From NCBI GenBank assembly GCA_016191225.1, contig JACPPC010000002.1, forward strand, positions 1-64,000: DNA of 64,000 nucleotides. The letters run 5' to 3'. The notes below the pieces were generated by a model. It was not told the DNA's origin, did no database searches, and worked only from the letters and a program-made list of their open reading frames with translations. Of the stretch, positions 39,338-46,247 are shown one piece after another (the stretch's first letter is position 1; the number at the start of each line of letters is the position of its first letter). The position numbers were made by a program, and so were the translations under genes. This stretch comes from Gemmatimonadota bacterium. GTDB taxonomy: Bacteria > Gemmatimonadota > Gemmatimonadetes > Gemmatimonadales > Gemmatimonadaceae.

Positions 39338-40297
39338 ATGGGCCTCGGCAAGTTCATCAAGAAGCAGTTCGTCGACGTCATCCAGTGGACGGAGGATGCC
39401 GAGGGCACGCTTGCCTGGCGCTTCCCGATGGCTGACATGGAGATCCAGTACGGCGGCAAGCTCACCGTGCGCGAGTCGCAGATGGCGCTCTTCGTGAACG
39501 AGGGCAAGGTCGCCGACGCCTTCGGTCCCGGGCTCCACACCCTCGTGACCCGGAACATCCCGGTCCTCACCAACCTCCAGCACTGGGACAAGGGGTTCGA
39601 GTCGCCCTTCAAGAGCGACGTCTACTTCTTCTCCACCCGGCTGCAGGTCAACCAGAAGTGGGGAACGCAGAACCCGATCACGATTCGCGACAAGGACTTC
39701 GGCGCTGTCCGGCTGCGCATGTTCGGGATCTACAGCTACAAGGTCGCCAACCCCCTCGTCTTCCACCAGAAAGTCGGCGGCACGCGCGACGTCTATCGTG
39801 CCGCCGACCTCGAGGGCCAGCTGCGCAACACGATCGTGGGTGCGGTGTCCAACGCATTCGCCCAGAGTGGCATTCCGTTCCTCGACATGGCCGCGAACAC
39901 CTGGGACCTCGCCAAGCGCATGCAGGGACTTCTCGCCCCCGGATTCGAGGAGATCGGCCTGGCGCTCGACTCGTTCGTGGTCGAGAATGTCTCGCTCCCC
40001 GAGGAGCTCCAGAAGCGCCTCGACGAGCGCATCGGCATGAACATGGTCGGCAACCTCGACCAGTACGCCAAGTTCCAGGCGGCGCAGTCGATCCCGATCG
40101 CCGCCGCCAATTCCGGCGGCGCCGCCGGGCTCGGTGCGGGCCTCGGCGCGGGCATGGGGATCGGCCAGGCCATGGCGAACGCCCTCAATCCCGCGCTGCC
40201 CGCTCCTCCCGCGGCCCCTGCTCCTCCCGCGGCCCCTGCTCCCCCCGCGGCACCGGCACCACCGGCGCCCGATCCCGCCACGGGTAAGGGGAGCTGA
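39338..40297 (+). CDS. SPFH-domain protein (YdjI/virion-core-like) with Ala/Pro-rich tail
   Basis: MGLGKFIKKQFVDVIQWTEDAEGTLAWRFPMADMEIQYGGKLTVRESQMALFVNEGKVADAFGPGLHTLVTRNIPVL. Confidence 0.88.
   Translation: MGLGKFIKKQFVDVIQWTEDAEGTLAWRFPMADMEIQYGGKLTVRESQMALFVNEGKVADAFGPGLHTLVTRNIPVLTNLQHWDKGFESPFKSDVYFFSTRLQVNQKWGTQNPITIRDKDFGAVRLRMFGIYSYKVANPLVFHQKVGGTRDVYRAADLEGQLRNTIVGAVSNAFAQSGIPFLDMAANTWDLAKRMQGLLAPGFEEIGLALDSFVVENVSLPEELQKRLDERIGMNMVGNLDQYAKFQAAQSIPIAAANSGGAAGLGAGLGAGMGIGQAMANALNPALPAPPAAPAPPAAPAPPAAPAPPAPDPATGKGS
40202..40255 (+). repeat. 18-bp tandem repeat (3 copies) encoding APPAAP
   Basis: gctcctcccgcggcccct x2 plus one diverged copy. Confidence 0.85.
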
Positions 40298-40301
40298 GCC
40301 C

Positions 40302-40709
40302 GTGCACGGCCGCGAGTGGATCGTCGAGGCCCACGGCTGCGTCCCGCCACGGCTCGCCGATCCCGCCGTTGTCGCGGCACTCCTCGACCAGGTGATCGGC
40401 GACCTGTCGCTCAGTCCCGTGGCGCCGCCGCAGTGGCACAAGTTCCCGGCGCCGGGCGGCGTCACGGGAGTCGCGATGCTCGCCGAGTCGCACCTCACCG
40501 TCCACACCTTTCCCGAGCACGGTTCGCTCTGCATGAACCTCTTCTGCTGCGGCCCGCGCCCTGAGTGGGACTTCGCGGCGGCGCTGCGAGCCCGCTTCGA
40601 TGCGCAAGTGGTGCAGGTGCGCTGCTTCGAGCGCGCCTACGGGCCCATGCAGGACGGCAAGGTCGCGCGCACCACGCCGGTCTCGGTGCGCATCGTCCGC
40701 GCCGGATGA
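40302..40709 (+). CDS. speD: S-adenosylmethionine decarboxylase proenzyme
   Basis: AMLAESHLTVHTFPEHGSLCMNLFCCG: processing site E-S plus family motif; GTG start 4 nt after upstream stop. Confidence 0.92.
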   Translation: MHGREWIVEAHGCVPPRLADPAVVAALLDQVIGDLSLSPVAPPQWHKFPAPGGVTGVAMLAESHLTVHTFPEHGSLCMNLFCCGPRPEWDFAAALRARFDAQVVQVRCFERAYGPMQDGKVARTTPVSVRIVRAG

Positions 40710-40739
40710 TCGTGCTGGCCCCATGAAGGCCCGGGGTCC

Positions 40740-41375
40740 GTGAGCTCGGTCGGTGCCAGCTGCCCCAACTGCGGCGCGGCCATCGTGTTTCGCTGGGCGC
40801 AGGCGGTGCAGGCCACCTGCGACTACTGCCGCTCGGTGCTCGTGCGCCACGACGTCGCGCTGGAACGGGTCGGCGAGTCCGCGATCGTGCCGCTCACGCC
40901 CTCGCCGCTGCAGCTCGGCACCGAGGGCACCTGGCGCGGCGCCGGGTTCACGGTCATCGGCCGGCTCGTGTACGCATGGGAGCGCGGCGGCTGGAGCGAG
41001 TGGCACCTGCGGCTCGACCGCGACGAGAGTGCCTGGCTCTCCGATGCGCAGGCGGAGTACGTCGTCACCTCGCAGGTGACCCCCGAGGCGGCACTGCCGG
41101 GGGCGCACGGCGTGGCACCCGGCCTTGCCCTGCTCCACCGCCATGTGCGCTACGAGGTCACCACCGTGACGCGGGCCCAGTACGTGGGCACCGAGGGTGA
41201 GCTGCCCTTTGCCTCGTGGGACCGCGCCGAGGTCACCTTTGCCGACCTCCGCTCCGCAACCGGCGGTTTCGCGACCATCGACTACAGCGAGGAGCCGCCG
41301 CTGCTCTTCACCGGCGAGGCGGTCGAGTTGAGCCAGCTCGCCTTGCGCAACCTGCGCACCTTCGAGGGATGGTGA
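40740..41375 (+). CDS. DUF4178-like protein with N-terminal zinc ribbon
   Basis: CPNCGAAIVFRWAQAVQATCDYCRSVLV then TWRGAGFTVIGRLVYAWERGGWSEWHLRL. Confidence 0.78.
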   Translation: MSSVGASCPNCGAAIVFRWAQAVQATCDYCRSVLVRHDVALERVGESAIVPLTPSPLQLGTEGTWRGAGFTVIGRLVYAWERGGWSEWHLRLDRDESAWLSDAQAEYVVTSQVTPEAALPGAHGVAPGLALLHRHVRYEVTTVTRAQYVGTEGELPFASWDRAEVTFADLRSATGGFATIDYSEEPPLLFTGEAVELSQLALRNLRTFEGW

Positions 41376-42706
41376 CCCGCCCCGCGGCGGGTCCCCGGGG
41401 CGCCGGGCCGGTGAAGGTCCGCGGCCTCAACTGTCCCAGTTGCGGCGCGGCCATCCAGCTGCGCGGCTTCCAGTACACGCAGCGCGTGATCTGCGACTCC
41501 TGCTGTGCCGTGCTCGACGCCCAGGACCCCGGCTACGCGGTGATCCAGAAGTTCGGCGAGCGGATGGCGCGCCGCACCCCGCTCATTCCCCTCGGCACGC
41601 GCGGACGCTGGAAGGGGGAGCCGTGGGAGGTGATCGGGTTCCAGGTGCGCACGATCGCCGTGGAGGGTATCCAGTATTCCTGGCACGAGTACCTGCTCTT
41701 CAACCCGTACCTCGGCTTTCGCTACCTCACGCAGTTCGACGGCCACTGGTGCGATGTGACCGCCTTGCGCGGCCTCCCCGAAACCGGCAGCGCCGCCGGC
41801 CGGCCCGTCGCCCGCTGGCGCGACCTCGAGTTCAGGGCCTTCCAGACGGCACGAGCCGTGACCACCTTCGCCGTGGGTGAGTTCCCTTGGGCGGTGGCGG
41901 TGGGCGACGCGGTCACGGCACGGGATTTCGTGAGCCCGCCGCTGATGCTGTCGTCCGAGACCACTGACGACGAGGTCACCTGGTCGCTTGGCGAGTATGT
42001 CAGCGGCGCGCGCGTCTGGGAGGCGTTCAACCTCGAGGACGACGCACCGGCCCCACAGGGCGTCTATGCCAACCAGCCGAACCCGGTGTCGGGGCGCGTC
42101 GGCGCCCGCTGGCGCACCTTCGCCCTCCTCCTCGCGCTGCTCGTGGCGCTGTTCGTCCTGCGACAGGCCACCGCCGCCAATGCGGTCGCTTTCAGCGGGG
42201 CCTACCGCTTCACTCCCGGCACCGGCGACACGGCCGCCTTCGTGACCGAACCCTTCGCGCTCACCGGCGGCACGGCCAACGTCGTCGTGCGCACCACCGC
42301 CACGGCCGACAACAGCTGGATCTTCGTCAACTACACGCTCATCAACGAGGAGTCGGGCGCCGTGTTCGAACTCGGTCGCGAGGTGAGCTACTACCACGGG
42401 CGCGACAGCGACGGCGCCTGGTCGGAGGGGGCGCGCGAGGATGACGCGCGCATTCCGGCCGTTCCCGCAGGACGCTGGTTCCTGCGCATCGAGCCCGAGG
42501 GGCCGCCCACGGGAGCGACGATCGACTACGCGGTGCAGGTCCGCCGCGACGCCCCCGGGGCGCTGCCCTTCGGGGCGGCCCTCGTCTTCCTGCTGCTCCC
42601 GCCGGTCGTCGTGTCGCTGCGATCGGCGTCGTTCGAGGGCAAGCGCTGGGCCGAGTCGGACTACGCCCCCGCATCGGACAACGACAGCGACGGCCGGGAC
42701 GACTGA
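41369..42706 (+). CDS. DUF4178-like membrane protein with N-terminal zinc ribbon
   Basis: CPSCGAAIQLRGFQYTQRVICDSCCAVL; RWKGEPWEVIGFQVRTIAVEGIQYSWHEYLLFNPYLGFRYLTQFDGHW; two C-terminal TM segments. Confidence 0.82.
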   Translation: MVTRPAAGPRGAGPVKVRGLNCPSCGAAIQLRGFQYTQRVICDSCCAVLDAQDPGYAVIQKFGERMARRTPLIPLGTRGRWKGEPWEVIGFQVRTIAVEGIQYSWHEYLLFNPYLGFRYLTQFDGHWCDVTALRGLPETGSAAGRPVARWRDLEFRAFQTARAVTTFAVGEFPWAVAVGDAVTARDFVSPPLMLSSETTDDEVTWSLGEYVSGARVWEAFNLEDDAPAPQGVYANQPNPVSGRVGARWRTFALLLALLVALFVLRQATAANAVAFSGAYRFTPGTGDTAAFVTEPFALTGGTANVVVRTTATADNSWIFVNYTLINEESGAVFELGREVSYYHGRDSDGAWSEGAREDDARIPAVPAGRWFLRIEPEGPPTGATIDYAVQVRRDAPGALPFGAALVFLLLPPVVVSLRSASFEGKRWAESDYAPASDNDSDGRDD

Positions 42707-42891
42707 TGGCGCTCTCGCGCGGCTACCTCGTGTTCGGCATCCTCGTGCTCGCCCTCGCCGGTGTCGCCGAATGGCGCGGCTGGCGCCTCGCCGGCACCGC
42801 CGAGGCGCGCACCGATCCCCGCTCGGTTCGCAACAATCCCGGGTCCTACCGCTCCACCTACTACGGTGGACGCGTCCACTACGGCAAGTGA
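42706..42891 (+). CDS. Small single-TM protein with Tyr/Gly-rich tail
   Basis: MALSRGYLVFGILVLALAGVAEWRGWRLAGTAEARTDPRSVRNNPGSYRSTYYGGRVHYGK; TGATG coupling to upstream gene. Confidence 0.72.
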   Translation: MALSRGYLVFGILVLALAGVAEWRGWRLAGTAEARTDPRSVRNNPGSYRSTYYGGRVHYGK

Positions 42892-42904
42892 GGAGGAACA
42901 GCTG

Positions 42905-43117
42905 ATGGACAACCTGCTTCGCAACAGCGCCGCGGTCGTCTTCTACGCCGTGCTCGGCATCGTGATCTACACCGCGGCGTTCATCGTCGTGGACAAGATC
43001 ACGCCCGGCCAGCTCTGGAACGAGCTGCTCGAGAAGCGCAACACCGCCATGGCTCTCTTCATGGGCGCGCTCGGCATCGGGATCTCCATTATCATCGCCG
43101 CGTCGATCCACTCGTAA
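42905..43117 (+). CDS. DUF350-like small membrane protein
   Basis: 70 aa, two TM helices, IYTAAFIVVDKITPGQLWNELLEKRNTAMALFMGALGIGISIIIAASI; gaggaaca Shine-Dalgarno. Confidence 0.8.
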   Translation: MDNLLRNSAAVVFYAVLGIVIYTAAFIVVDKITPGQLWNELLEKRNTAMALFMGALGIGISIIIAASIHS

Positions 43118-43147
43118 CCGCGCCCCTCCGCCCGCGATCGCCGATCC

Positions 43148-44647
43148 GTGCCCGCCGCCCTCTTCGCCACCACGCTGCTGATCGCCGCCTGCGGGCTCGT
43201 CTACGAGCTCGTGGCCGGCGCCCTCGCCAGCTACCTCCTCGGTGACTCGGTCACGCAGTTCTCCACCATCATCGGGGCCTACCTCGCTGCCATGGGCGTC
43301 GGCAGCTGGCTGTCGCGGTTCATCGGCCGCGGTCTCGTGGCGCGCTTCCTCGCTGTCGAGCTCCTCGTCGCCGTCGTCGGCGGCTTCTCGTCCACCGTCC
43401 TTTTCCTCGCCTTTGCCTGGACTGACGCCTTCCGGCTCGCGCTCTACGCGATCGTCGTGGTCGTCGGCATCCTCGTCGGCCTCGAGATCCCGCTCCTCAT
43501 GCGCATCCTGCGCGAGCGCTTCGAGTTCAAGGACGTGGTGGCCAGCGTGCTGACCTTCGACTACCTCGGGGCGCTCCTCGCTTCGCTCCTCTTTCCCCTC
43601 GTGCTCGTTCCCCAGCTCGGCCTCGTGCGGTCGGCGCTCGCCTTCGGCCTCGTGAATGCGGCTGTTGCCCTCTGGGGCACCTGGCTCTTTCGCGCCGCCC
43701 TCGGCGGCACCCGGGCGCTGCGAGTCGCCGGCGTCGCCGCCCTCGCGCTCCTCGCGGGCGGCTTCGTGTACGGCGAGCGCATCACCGCCGCCGCCGAGCG
43801 CGGCCTGTATGCCGACGACGTCATCTTCGCCCGCACCACGCCCTACCAGCGGATCGTCCTCACCGTGTGGAAGGACGACCTGCGGCTCTTTCTCAACAAC
43901 CACCTCCAGTTCAGTTCGCGCGACGAGTACCGCTACCACGAGGCGCTGGTGCACCCCGGCCTTGCCGGCCTCCAGGGGGCGCGGCGCGTCCTCGTCCTCG
44001 GCGGCGGCGACGGCCTCGCCCTCCGCGAGGTCCTCAAGTACCCGGGCGTCGCCCACGTCACGCTGGTCGACCTCGACGCCGGCATGACCGGGCTCTTCCG
44101 CACCCACCCGCGCCTCGTCGAGCTCAACGGCGGCGCCCTCTCGTCGCCGCGCGTGCGCGTCGTCAATGCCGACGCGTTCTCCTGGCTCGACACCAGCCAG
44201 GATCGCTTCGACTTCGTTGTCGTCGACTTTCCGGACCCCTCCAACTACTCCGTCGGCAAGCTGTACTCCACGGCGTTCTACCGGCTCCTCACCCGTCACC
44301 TGTCCCGCGACGCACGCATCGTCGTGCAGAGCACCTCTCCCCTCTTTGCCCGCGCGTCCTTCTGGTGCGTCGACCGGACGCTGCGGGAGGCCGGACTCCG
44401 GACCGCACCCTACCACCTCTACGTCCCTTCGTTCGGCGAGTGGGGATTCGTCCTCGCCAGCCTCGGCGAGCCATACGCCGCGCCGACGCAGCTTCCCGCC
44501 GGCCTCCGGTTCCTCACCGCGTCGCAGCTCGCTCCGCTCTTTGACTTCCCCCTCGACATGCAGCCGGTGCCAGTCCTGCCCAACCGGCTGAACGACCAGG
44601 TGCTCGTGCGCTACTACGAGCGGGAGTGGGAGCGCATCAACCGGTGA
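43148..44647 (+). CDS. Membrane-embedded polyamine aminopropyltransferase (spermidine synthase-like)
   Basis: Multi-TM N-terminal half; C-terminal RVLVLGGGDGLALREVLKYPGVAHVTLVDLD ... VVVDFPDPSNYSVGKLYSTAFYRLL. Confidence 0.9.
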   Translation: MPAALFATTLLIAACGLVYELVAGALASYLLGDSVTQFSTIIGAYLAAMGVGSWLSRFIGRGLVARFLAVELLVAVVGGFSSTVLFLAFAWTDAFRLALYAIVVVVGILVGLEIPLLMRILRERFEFKDVVASVLTFDYLGALLASLLFPLVLVPQLGLVRSALAFGLVNAAVALWGTWLFRAALGGTRALRVAGVAALALLAGGFVYGERITAAAERGLYADDVIFARTTPYQRIVLTVWKDDLRLFLNNHLQFSSRDEYRYHEALVHPGLAGLQGARRVLVLGGGDGLALREVLKYPGVAHVTLVDLDAGMTGLFRTHPRLVELNGGALSSPRVRVVNADAFSWLDTSQDRFDFVVVDFPDPSNYSVGKLYSTAFYRLLTRHLSRDARIVVQSTSPLFARASFWCVDRTLREAGLRTAPYHLYVPSFGEWGFVLASLGEPYAAPTQLPAGLRFLTASQLAPLFDFPLDMQPVPVLPNRLNDQVLVRYYEREWERINR

Positions 44648-44705
44648 GCGGCGCCGGATGCACCCCGTGGCGCCCGCCATCGCCGCCGGCGAGGGCGCCG
44701 TGACC

Positions 44706-46247
44706 ATGCCACAGTCGCGACGCGCCTTCCTCGGCGCGGTGGCCGGGGCGAGCGCCGCACTCGTCGGGCTGTCGTGCAAGGGCGGGCCCCGCATCGCTGG
44801 CACCTTCGCCGACGATGGCGGAGCCGCCGGCCACCTGATTCGCGACGGGGCCACGCTCGCCAAGCCCCGCGAGCGCCGGCGGGTTCCCCTCGTCATCGTG
44901 GGTGGCGGCATCGCGGGCCTCTCGGCCGCCTGGTGGTGCGAGCGACAGGGGATGCGCGACTTCGTCGTGCTTGAGCTCGAGGCCGAGGCCGGCGGCAACG
45001 CGCGCGCCGGGCGAAACGACATCGGCGCCTTCCCTTGGGGGGCGCACTACGTCCCGGTGCCCGGCAAGCGCGCCACGCTGGCCCGCGCCCTCTTCGAGGA
45101 CCTCGGTGTCCTTCGCGACGGGACATGGGACGAGCGCTCGCTCTGCTACGCTCCGCAGGAGCGGCTGTTCTGGCGCGGCCGCTGGCACGAGGGCTTCGAG
45201 TCGTTCCTCCTCGACGCGCCGGCGGGCCGGGCTGAGTGGTCCCGCTTCAGCGAGCGCCTCGCGGAGCTGCGGGCCGGCGGCGGGTTCACCGTGCCCCTCT
45301 CCATCGGGGCGCCGGCCTCCTCGCCCCTCGACAGCGTCACCTTCAGCGACTGGCTCGAGCGAGAGGGATTTCGGTCGCCGGCGCTGCGTTGGTATGCGGA
45401 CTACGCCTGCCGCGATGACTACGGCACGCGTGCCGTCGACACGTCGGCGTGGGCCGGGCTGCACTACTTCGCCGCGCGCGAGCACGAGGAGCTGGGTCCC
45501 CTCACCTGGCCCTCGGGCAACGGGTGGATCGTCGAGCGCCTGCTCGAGCGTGTGGGCGACCGCGTGCGCACCGGCGCCGCCGTCCGGCGGGTCACGCTCT
45601 CGGGCTCCCGGGCGGTCGTGCGCACGGCGACTGCCGAGTACCGGGCGGACGCCGTGATCTGGGCGGCACCGATCTTCCTCGCCGCGCACATGGTGCAGGG
45701 ATTCCCCTCCACCGCGGACGTCACGTACGCCCCCTGGCTCGTGGCCAACTGCGTGCTCGACCGGTGGCCCGAGGATCATGGCGCACCGGCGGCCTGGGAC
45801 AATACGATCGTTGGCTCTCCGGGTCTCGGCTACGTCGTCTCCACGCACCAGCAGGTGGCGCGGGCCGGGGACAGGTCGGTGTGGACCTATTACCGCTCGA
45901 TTCCCGGCGTCACCCCCGCCGCCGCCCGTCGCTACCTGCTCCGGACTCCCTGGCATGACTGGGCCGACCTTGTCCTCGACGACCTCGAGCAGGCCCACCC
46001 CGACATCCGCTCCTGCGTGTCCCGCCTCGACCTCCGCCGGTACGGACACGCAATGGCGCGACCGGTCCCCGGCTTTCTCGACGCTCGCTGGCGGCGCACG
46101 TTGCAGTCGTCGCGGGGGCCGGTCTGGTACGGCCACGCCGACCTGGGCGGGATCTCAATTTTCGAGGAGGCGCAGGATCGCGGTGTTTCCGCGGCCCGAA
46201 AGGCCCTCGACAGGTTGGCAGGTGCGTATGGCGCCTCCGGCGCGTAG
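44706..46247 (+). CDS. FAD-dependent amine oxidase-like protein, twin-arginine-like signal
   Basis: MPQSRRAFLGAVAGASAALVGLSCKG; VPLVIVGGGIAGLSAAWWCERQGMRDFVVLELEAEAGGNARAGR. Confidence 0.85.
   Translation: MPQSRRAFLGAVAGASAALVGLSCKGGPRIAGTFADDGGAAGHLIRDGATLAKPRERRRVPLVIVGGGIAGLSAAWWCERQGMRDFVVLELEAEAGGNARAGRNDIGAFPWGAHYVPVPGKRATLARALFEDLGVLRDGTWDERSLCYAPQERLFWRGRWHEGFESFLLDAPAGRAEWSRFSERLAELRAGGGFTVPLSIGAPASSPLDSVTFSDWLEREGFRSPALRWYADYACRDDYGTRAVDTSAWAGLHYFAAREHEELGPLTWPSGNGWIVERLLERVGDRVRTGAAVRRVTLSGSRAVVRTATAEYRADAVIWAAPIFLAAHMVQGFPSTADVTYAPWLVANCVLDRWPEDHGAPAAWDNTIVGSPGLGYVVSTHQQVARAGDRSVWTYYRSIPGVTPAAARRYLLRTPWHDWADLVLDDLEQAHPDIRSCVSRLDLRRYGHAMARPVPGFLDARWRRTLQSSRGPVWYGHADLGGISIFEEAQDRGVSAARKALDRLAGAYGASGA

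Follow-up and report, generated by a model that had tools for sequence, protein, structure and literature searches.

A lysine-tailed microprotein as candidate aminopropyl acceptor in a conserved SpeD–membrane SpeE gene module

Eight adjacent genes of a Gemmatimonadota genome constitute a real module that is kept across several bacterial phyla. The most informative of them was mentioned only in passing in an earlier account made from the DNA alone (here called the sequence-only reading): it encodes a lysine-tailed microprotein, a new element that had been overlooked and is unannotated. Clusters that combine speD, a gene for a membrane-bound SpeE (mSpeE) and a DUF350 gene have hitherto been without an acceptor for the aminopropyl group, and the invariant C-terminal lysine of the microprotein supplies a single candidate. 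Our tentative reading, for which our confidence falls short of even, is that the module carries out a new protein modification, in which mSpeE would grow an aminopropyl chain from decarboxylated SAM (dcSAM) on this lysine, possibly at the outer face of the membrane.

The window is the whole 64,000-nucleotide stretch of DNA that was analysed, from a Gemmatimonadota assembly (3.04 Mb, 23 contigs); the closest related loci are in Gemmatimonadetes. Re-derivation of the open reading frames of positions 39338–46247, with Pfam and NCBIfam profile searches, bore out the description of eight genes of named families on one strand (+). Two of the three overlaps that had been reported are true ones (41369/41375, of 7 nt, and 42706, of 1 nt), and the third (40297/40302) turned out to be a 4-nt gap. 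The cluster begins with the gene for an SPFH/band-7 protein (Band_7_1; 39338..40297, +; 319 aa; PF13421, E 1.2e-75), which has an Ala/Pro-rich C-terminus; only Band_7 models of Pfam match it at E <= 0.1, with no SHOCT and no fused 2TM domain, and a sequence search for solved relatives found none. Two DUF4178 genes follow after speD. DUF4178-a (40740..41375, +; 211 aa; PF13785, E 7.7e-18) has an N-terminal CxxC...CxxC zinc ribbon, whose four cysteines are invariant in the alignment, ahead of the DUF4178 domain. DUF4178-b (41369..42706, +; 445 aa; PF13785, E 8.8e-18) has the same two elements followed by a transmembrane (TM) helix, a β-sandwich ectodomain and a second TM helix (residues 241–268, 273–393 and 399–428, respectively, in an AlphaFold2 model of mean pLDDT 87.6); its solved relatives were limited to weak β-sandwich matches and zinc ribbons, and coverage of DUF4178 was sparse in the literature searched. 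The DUF350 membrane protein (42905..43117, +; 70 aa; PF03994, E 4.2e-12) covers positions 4–66 of the 133 in the Pfam model, and is thus a half-length unit with two TM helices. The last gene encodes a flavin amine-oxidase-like protein (44658..46247, +; 529 aa; PF01593, Amino_oxidase, E 5.4e-14) of Tat type, a twin-arginine signal being present in 67 of 70 orthologues.

Conservation of the module was assessed in 35 Gemmatimonadota neighbourhoods and in 80 loci of named genomes, mostly of Acidobacteriota. In all 115 of these related loci the genes that are present keep the order seen in the window, so the cluster is not a product of chance, and the full set of eight genes occurs in 75 (24 + 51). 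The neighbourhood search that the sequence-only reading had recommended thus revealed genes co-conserved far outside the lineage, in Gemmatimonadota, Acidobacteriota and Proteobacteria. The module is missing from about 88% of the sampled Gemmatimonadota: DUF4178 is found in 36 of 298 genomes, every time at least as an adjacent pair. Its least constant member is the flavin oxidase, absent from its place in 19 loci for reasons other than contig ends. SPFH is the first gene in most loci, and in one family of loci (L061–L067) it is absent from the cluster and the two DUF4178 genes are fused into one open reading frame. An apparent loss of SPFH in family f6 may not be a true one, as a different Band_7_1 protein is encoded elsewhere there. 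Two genomes of one genus (L035, L049) retain only SPFH, DUF4178-a and a DUF4178-b that lacks the ectodomain. A phage or viral origin was considered and rejected, as neither viral contigs nor phages gave a match. PspA was also considered as a hidden partner of the cluster: one PspA is encoded in each of the 19 genomes tested, including one with a reduced cluster, so that its presence is not diagnostic.

Proteobacterial megaplasmids carry a rearranged module. The order on a Novosphingobium plasmid is SPFH–DUF4178–DUF4178–hypothetical–DUF350–aminopropyltransferase–oxidase–speD, and plasmids of Burkholderia, Tritonibacter, Ensifer and Alteromonas have partial or rearranged versions.

The module has two polyamine genes. 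The first (40302..40709, +; PF02675, E 5.8e-24) encodes a class 1b S-adenosylmethionine decarboxylase, SpeD, which scores below the NCBIfam cut-off for the SpeD equivalog. The positions of S63, H68 and C83 of Thermotoga maritima SpeD, which are the processing and catalytic residues of that enzyme (PMC10407285), are conserved, and E62-S63-H64, H68 and C83 are invariant in the orthologue alignment; the intact ESH self-processing site had already been noticed in the sequence-only reading, and the proline of the HTFPE stretch is also kept. SpeD therefore has the residues needed for making dcSAM, and no other SpeD homologue of the genome has the ESH, His and Cys residues. A second homologue was rejected as a donor: it has CH for SH (the pyruvoyl Ser being replaced by Cys) and the cysteine is missing. 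The other polyamine gene (43148..44647, +; NF002956, 692 bits) encodes mSpeE, in which seven N-terminal TM helices precede an aminopropyltransferase domain (AlphaFold2, mean pLDDT 86.6). A profile comparison of the soluble domain with SpeE of Thermus thermophilus gave an E of 2e-42, the same enzyme is the closest solved fold to the predicted structure (TMt 0.72), and all 103 orthologues have the DxxDP gate. mSpeE thus retains both the fold of an aminopropyltransferase and the catalytic DxxD gate, and it is the only strong SpeE in the genome. The seven-TM SpeE, together with SpeD and the co-conserved partners, supports the earlier view of a membrane-localised aminopropyl module, and on account of those TM helices and partners we reject an ordinary cytosolic spermidine operon.

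The microprotein gene (42706..42891, +; 61 aa) lies between DUF4178-b and DUF350, and its product matches no Pfam or NCBIfam family. This protein contains a single TM helix and, in its tail, the motif PRSVRxNPGxYR, and it ends in Gly60-Lys61 (codons at 42883..42888, +, followed directly by the stop codon), Lys61 being the proposed acceptor. All 110 complete copies (99 of them distinct, 59–84 aa) end in GK; the background, in 1280 other open reading frames of the same loci, is 63 with C-terminal Lys (4.9%) and 0.4% with GK, and no other gene of the cluster has an invariant last residue. A pattern for the microprotein DNA motif had 24 matches in 298 genomes, 23 of them inside clusters and the other in a genome where a contig end interrupts the cluster; the reversed control pattern had zero matches in these genomes.

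Small TM proteins in the alpha- and betaproteobacterial versions of the module cannot be aligned with the microprotein of the window, yet they too have a C-terminal lysine. The tails are ...PSHK and ...PTHK in Novosphingobium and ...GSHK in Burkholderia (HK in three plasmids in each case), ...NRVK in Tritonibacter and ...ESGK in Ensifer, and the counterpart in Alteromonas is a 510-aa lipoprotein (lipobox ISAC) with the tail ...PSSGK. In all the SpeD-containing operons of this type that we examined, the tail protein thus has a C-terminal Lys, a pattern which was recognised post hoc. A second operon in one Gemmatimonadota genome (L068) comprises DUF4178, lipoprotein, CesT and PspA genes without SpeE, and its lipoprotein, which has a 35-residue motif in common with the Alteromonas one (E 8e-6), ends in ...RRRH. 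The three loci that have the microprotein but no adjacent SpeE are in genomes that each encode an mSpeE elsewhere (68–70% identity), and mSpeE is missing, too, from two genomes of genus g6 in which microprotein, SpeD and DUF350 have been lost. A counter-case is provided by haloarchaeal operons with a membrane SpeE, in which a Tat lipoprotein ends in ...SPRI. No speD was present in the neighbourhoods of these genes that were seen, and the mSpeE of Salinibaculum has DIPGAKD in place of DxxDP, the second gate Asp being missing; we regard the haloarchaeal operons as representing a different state, a decision made after seeing them.

How might these components work together? SpeD would make dcSAM, and mSpeE would then move the aminopropyl group from dcSAM to the amine of the C-terminal lysine, so that a peptide anchored in the membrane would acquire a cationic tail of lysine-polyamine type. 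The flavin oxidase, presumably exported by the Tat system, might, where it occurs, act on the modified amine by oxidising or resetting it, and SPFH, the paired zinc-ribbon DUF4178 proteins and DUF350 may scaffold the system or sense the state of the membrane. Aminopropylation of the tethered microprotein by mSpeE, at its C-terminal lysine, is, in our estimation, a serious possibility of somewhat less than even probability. The modified peptide would be an analogue of what the Escherichia coli enzymes YjfC and YgiC make by ligating spermidine to peptides.

The topology of such a reaction deserves comment. The mean number of K + R residues in mSpeE is 2.9, 3.8 and 2.0 for loops 2, 4 and 6, and 0, 0.7, 0.7 and 1.0 for loops 1, 3 and 5 and the segment after TM7, a distribution which suggests that the N-terminus is inside and the SpeE domain outside. 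The lipoprotein versions of the tail protein likewise place the lysine outside the cytoplasm, whereas dcSAM is made inside, which is awkward for the proposal: with SpeE domain and lysine both outside, dcSAM would have to cross the membrane, with DUF350 or the 7TM domain as a possible passage. Should TM7 not actually span the membrane, the SpeE domain would be inside, and modification would precede export.

The same genes might serve another acceptor, such as a lipid head group, a peptidoglycan precursor or a small amine, in a polyamine-independent reaction, the microprotein then being a structural or regulatory subunit whose lysine docks. A lipid substrate would suit a membrane enzyme, and DUF350 and SPFH also point to membrane lipids; Ravi et al. 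(2024; PMC11237479) refer to Li et al. (2019) on the aminopropylation of alternative substrates. We nevertheless consider this unlikely, though the best of the alternatives, as it leaves unexplained why the last residue alone survives in tails that are otherwise unalignable, and the module encodes no further candidate acceptor.

Alternatively, mSpeE might perform ordinary polyamine synthesis at the membrane, converting putrescine or agmatine to spermidine or aminopropylagmatine, with its neighbours regulating or using the product. Its SpeE domain is indeed closest to the T. thermophilus triamine/agmatine aminopropyltransferase, a long Orn/Arg decarboxylase match in the genome is consistent with SpeA, and the only intact SpeD and only strong SpeE of the genome are those of the cluster. 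Against this, the genome also codes for a deoxyhypusine-synthase-like protein, which could be a homospermidine synthase, and the need for polyamines may be met elsewhere; most sampled Gemmatimonadota are without the cluster; and fusions of the mSpeE type, in the 2019 work of Li and colleagues, reportedly fail to complement a spermidine synthase mutant of E. coli. This possibility seems to us distinctly improbable. A polyamine route outside the cluster, involving the SpeA-like and deoxyhypusine-synthase-like proteins, may therefore exist, which fits a different job for mSpeE but is not proof of it. The type of deoxyhypusine-synthase-like protein correlates with the cluster, in what looks like lineage structure, and a search of the literature for the polyamine content of cluster-bearing cultures found nothing. 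Finally, it is very unlikely that the microprotein is a tether like Braun's lipoprotein (Lpp), which is bound to peptidoglycan via its C-terminal lysine, with L,D-transpeptidases making the link and the polyamine genes only tuning it: the shared terminal lysine, the Gly/Ser/Tyr-rich tails and the extracytoplasmic position of the lipoprotein versions are in its favour, but the module has no L,D-transpeptidase, the lysine tracks SpeD and mSpeE, and in size and TM anchor the microprotein is unlike Lpp.

Modules of this kind have been described before. Li, Kurihara, Kim, Liang and Michael are said to have reported, in 2019, clusters comprising AdoMetDC, a membrane SpdSyn fusion and DUF350, and to have suspected an acceptor other than putrescine, the fusion reportedly being inactive on putrescine and making no spermidine. 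SpeD, the TM-SpdSyn fusion and the DUF350 neighbour are common to those clusters and ours; we know of no paired DUF4178, lysine-tailed microprotein or SPFH-to-oxidase order in that work. For a polyamine-independent role of AdoMetDC, that work (Biochem J 476:2579) is cited by Ravi et al. (2024; PMC11237479). Ravi et al. themselves describe a PSP-linked operon with a CesT/Tir-PspA pair, 7TM-SpdSyn, DUF350, a lipoprotein and DUF4178, and a band-7/SHOCT variant of ATP-grasp operons with AdoMetDC and a polyamine oxidase, so that the related neighbourhoods mentioned in the sequence-only reading do exist in the literature, with nearly all parts.

In comparison with the former operon, the window has in common 7TM-SpdSyn, DUF350, DUF4178 and a small partner protein, presumably extracytoplasmic, but lacks the CesT/PspA dyad (Pfam found no such pair within 39338–46247, PspA being encoded elsewhere in the genome), has two zinc-ribbon DUF4178 proteins and a 2-TM DUF350, and adds SpeD and the flavin oxidase; in place of the Ctha_1186-type lipoprotein, compared here by description, is the 61-aa microprotein with its one TM helix. 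With the band-7/SHOCT variant it shares SpeD, a gene of the flavin amine-oxidase type and a band-7 protein that takes the place of the PspA dyad; there the band-7 domain is fused to a C-terminal 2TM-SHOCT, whereas here there is no SHOCT, and a Pfam search of the eight genes found no ATP-grasp ligase, in agreement with the earlier statement that neither ATP-grasp nor PspA is visible in the cluster. The suggestion of a distinct variant therefore stands, in that the layout differs from those of Ravi and Li (band-7 without PspA/CesT, paired zinc-ribbon DUF4178, 2-TM DUF350, Tat-type oxidase), but the supposition that its kind was unknown does not. What is new and specific is the acceptor proposed here, to which we would give somewhat less than an even chance of being right.

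Aminopropyl units on protein lysines have a precedent in diatom silaffins (PMC4557024), which share with the present proposal the placing of such units on lysine side chains; they are eukaryotic, use internal lysines and have a silica-forming role. If the proposal is true, bacteria gain another protein modification, linked to SPFH/PSP-type envelope biology. In E. coli, yjfIJKLMC and ygiBC are peptide-spermidine ligase systems, according to PMC12568646, which cites Pederick et al. (2023). The yjf/ygi systems have in common with the module a neighbouring DUF350 gene (in the case of yjf), a small, presumably extracytoplasmic partner whose tail is rich in Gly/Ser, and polyamine chemistry on a peptide, but they use ATP-grasp spermidine ligation and a GG partner where aminopropyl transfer and a GK partner are predicted here. 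The partner lipoproteins YjfM and YgiB, whose genes adjoin those for YjfC and YgiC, both end in GG; their tails fit ligation of spermidine to the carboxylate of a C-terminal glycine, although we found no demonstration in the literature that they are ligase substrates. In each case the tail end would then match the neighbouring chemistry, GG for ligation and GK for aminopropyl transfer. If so, two enzyme classes would be unified by a common outcome, a tethered envelope protein with a polyamine at its end, and the module would represent a second route to polyamine-tipped envelope proteins, parallel to ATP-grasp spermidine ligation.

In family f6 (loci L061-L067), DUF4178-a and DUF4178-b, the adjacent zinc-ribbon proteins of the cluster, are encoded by one fused ORF, roughly 635-680 aa long, and this fusion is evidence that the two function as a pair. 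One genome (G223) has the cluster together with a separate DUF4178-lipoprotein-CesT-PspA operon (L068:6901-9655, on contig C61), so the two architectures are able to coexist.

The cluster is likely to be mobile, since it lies in its entirety on a 1.1-Mb plasmid of Gemmatirosa kalamazoonensis (L042; NZ_CP007129.1), while Novosphingobium sp. THN1 and N. resinovorum carry it on megaplasmids of conjugative type.

The window's own genome (G000) encodes a second SpeD homologue of 116 aa (C14:96535-96855 = L151:6509-6859), adjoined by a cyclic-nucleotide-binding-like ORF. It has Cys in place of the pyruvoyl serine (GCHMSVHALPSRG) and lacks the catalytic Cys; it is probably not an active decarboxylase. 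Deoxyhypusine-synthase-like proteins of 60 Gemmatimonadota genomes fall into two types, the short one being present in all eight genomes with a strong membrane SpeE (mSpeE) and the long one in most of the others.

Haloarchaeal plasmids carry membrane spermidine-synthase-like genes (L179, L180 and L182), each with a hypothetical gene upstream (encoding Tat lipoproteins with a KVSPRI terminus in L179 and L180) and a short gene downstream (DUF2617 in two); in this set, the Salinibaculum SpeE has a degenerate version of the DxxDP gate motif. On a megaplasmid of Alteromonas mediterranea (L172), the operon runs mSpeE-SpeD-hypothetical-TelA-like-DUF4178-lipoprotein-DUF350, with the 'toxic anion resistance' (TelA-like) protein at the SPFH/PspA position.
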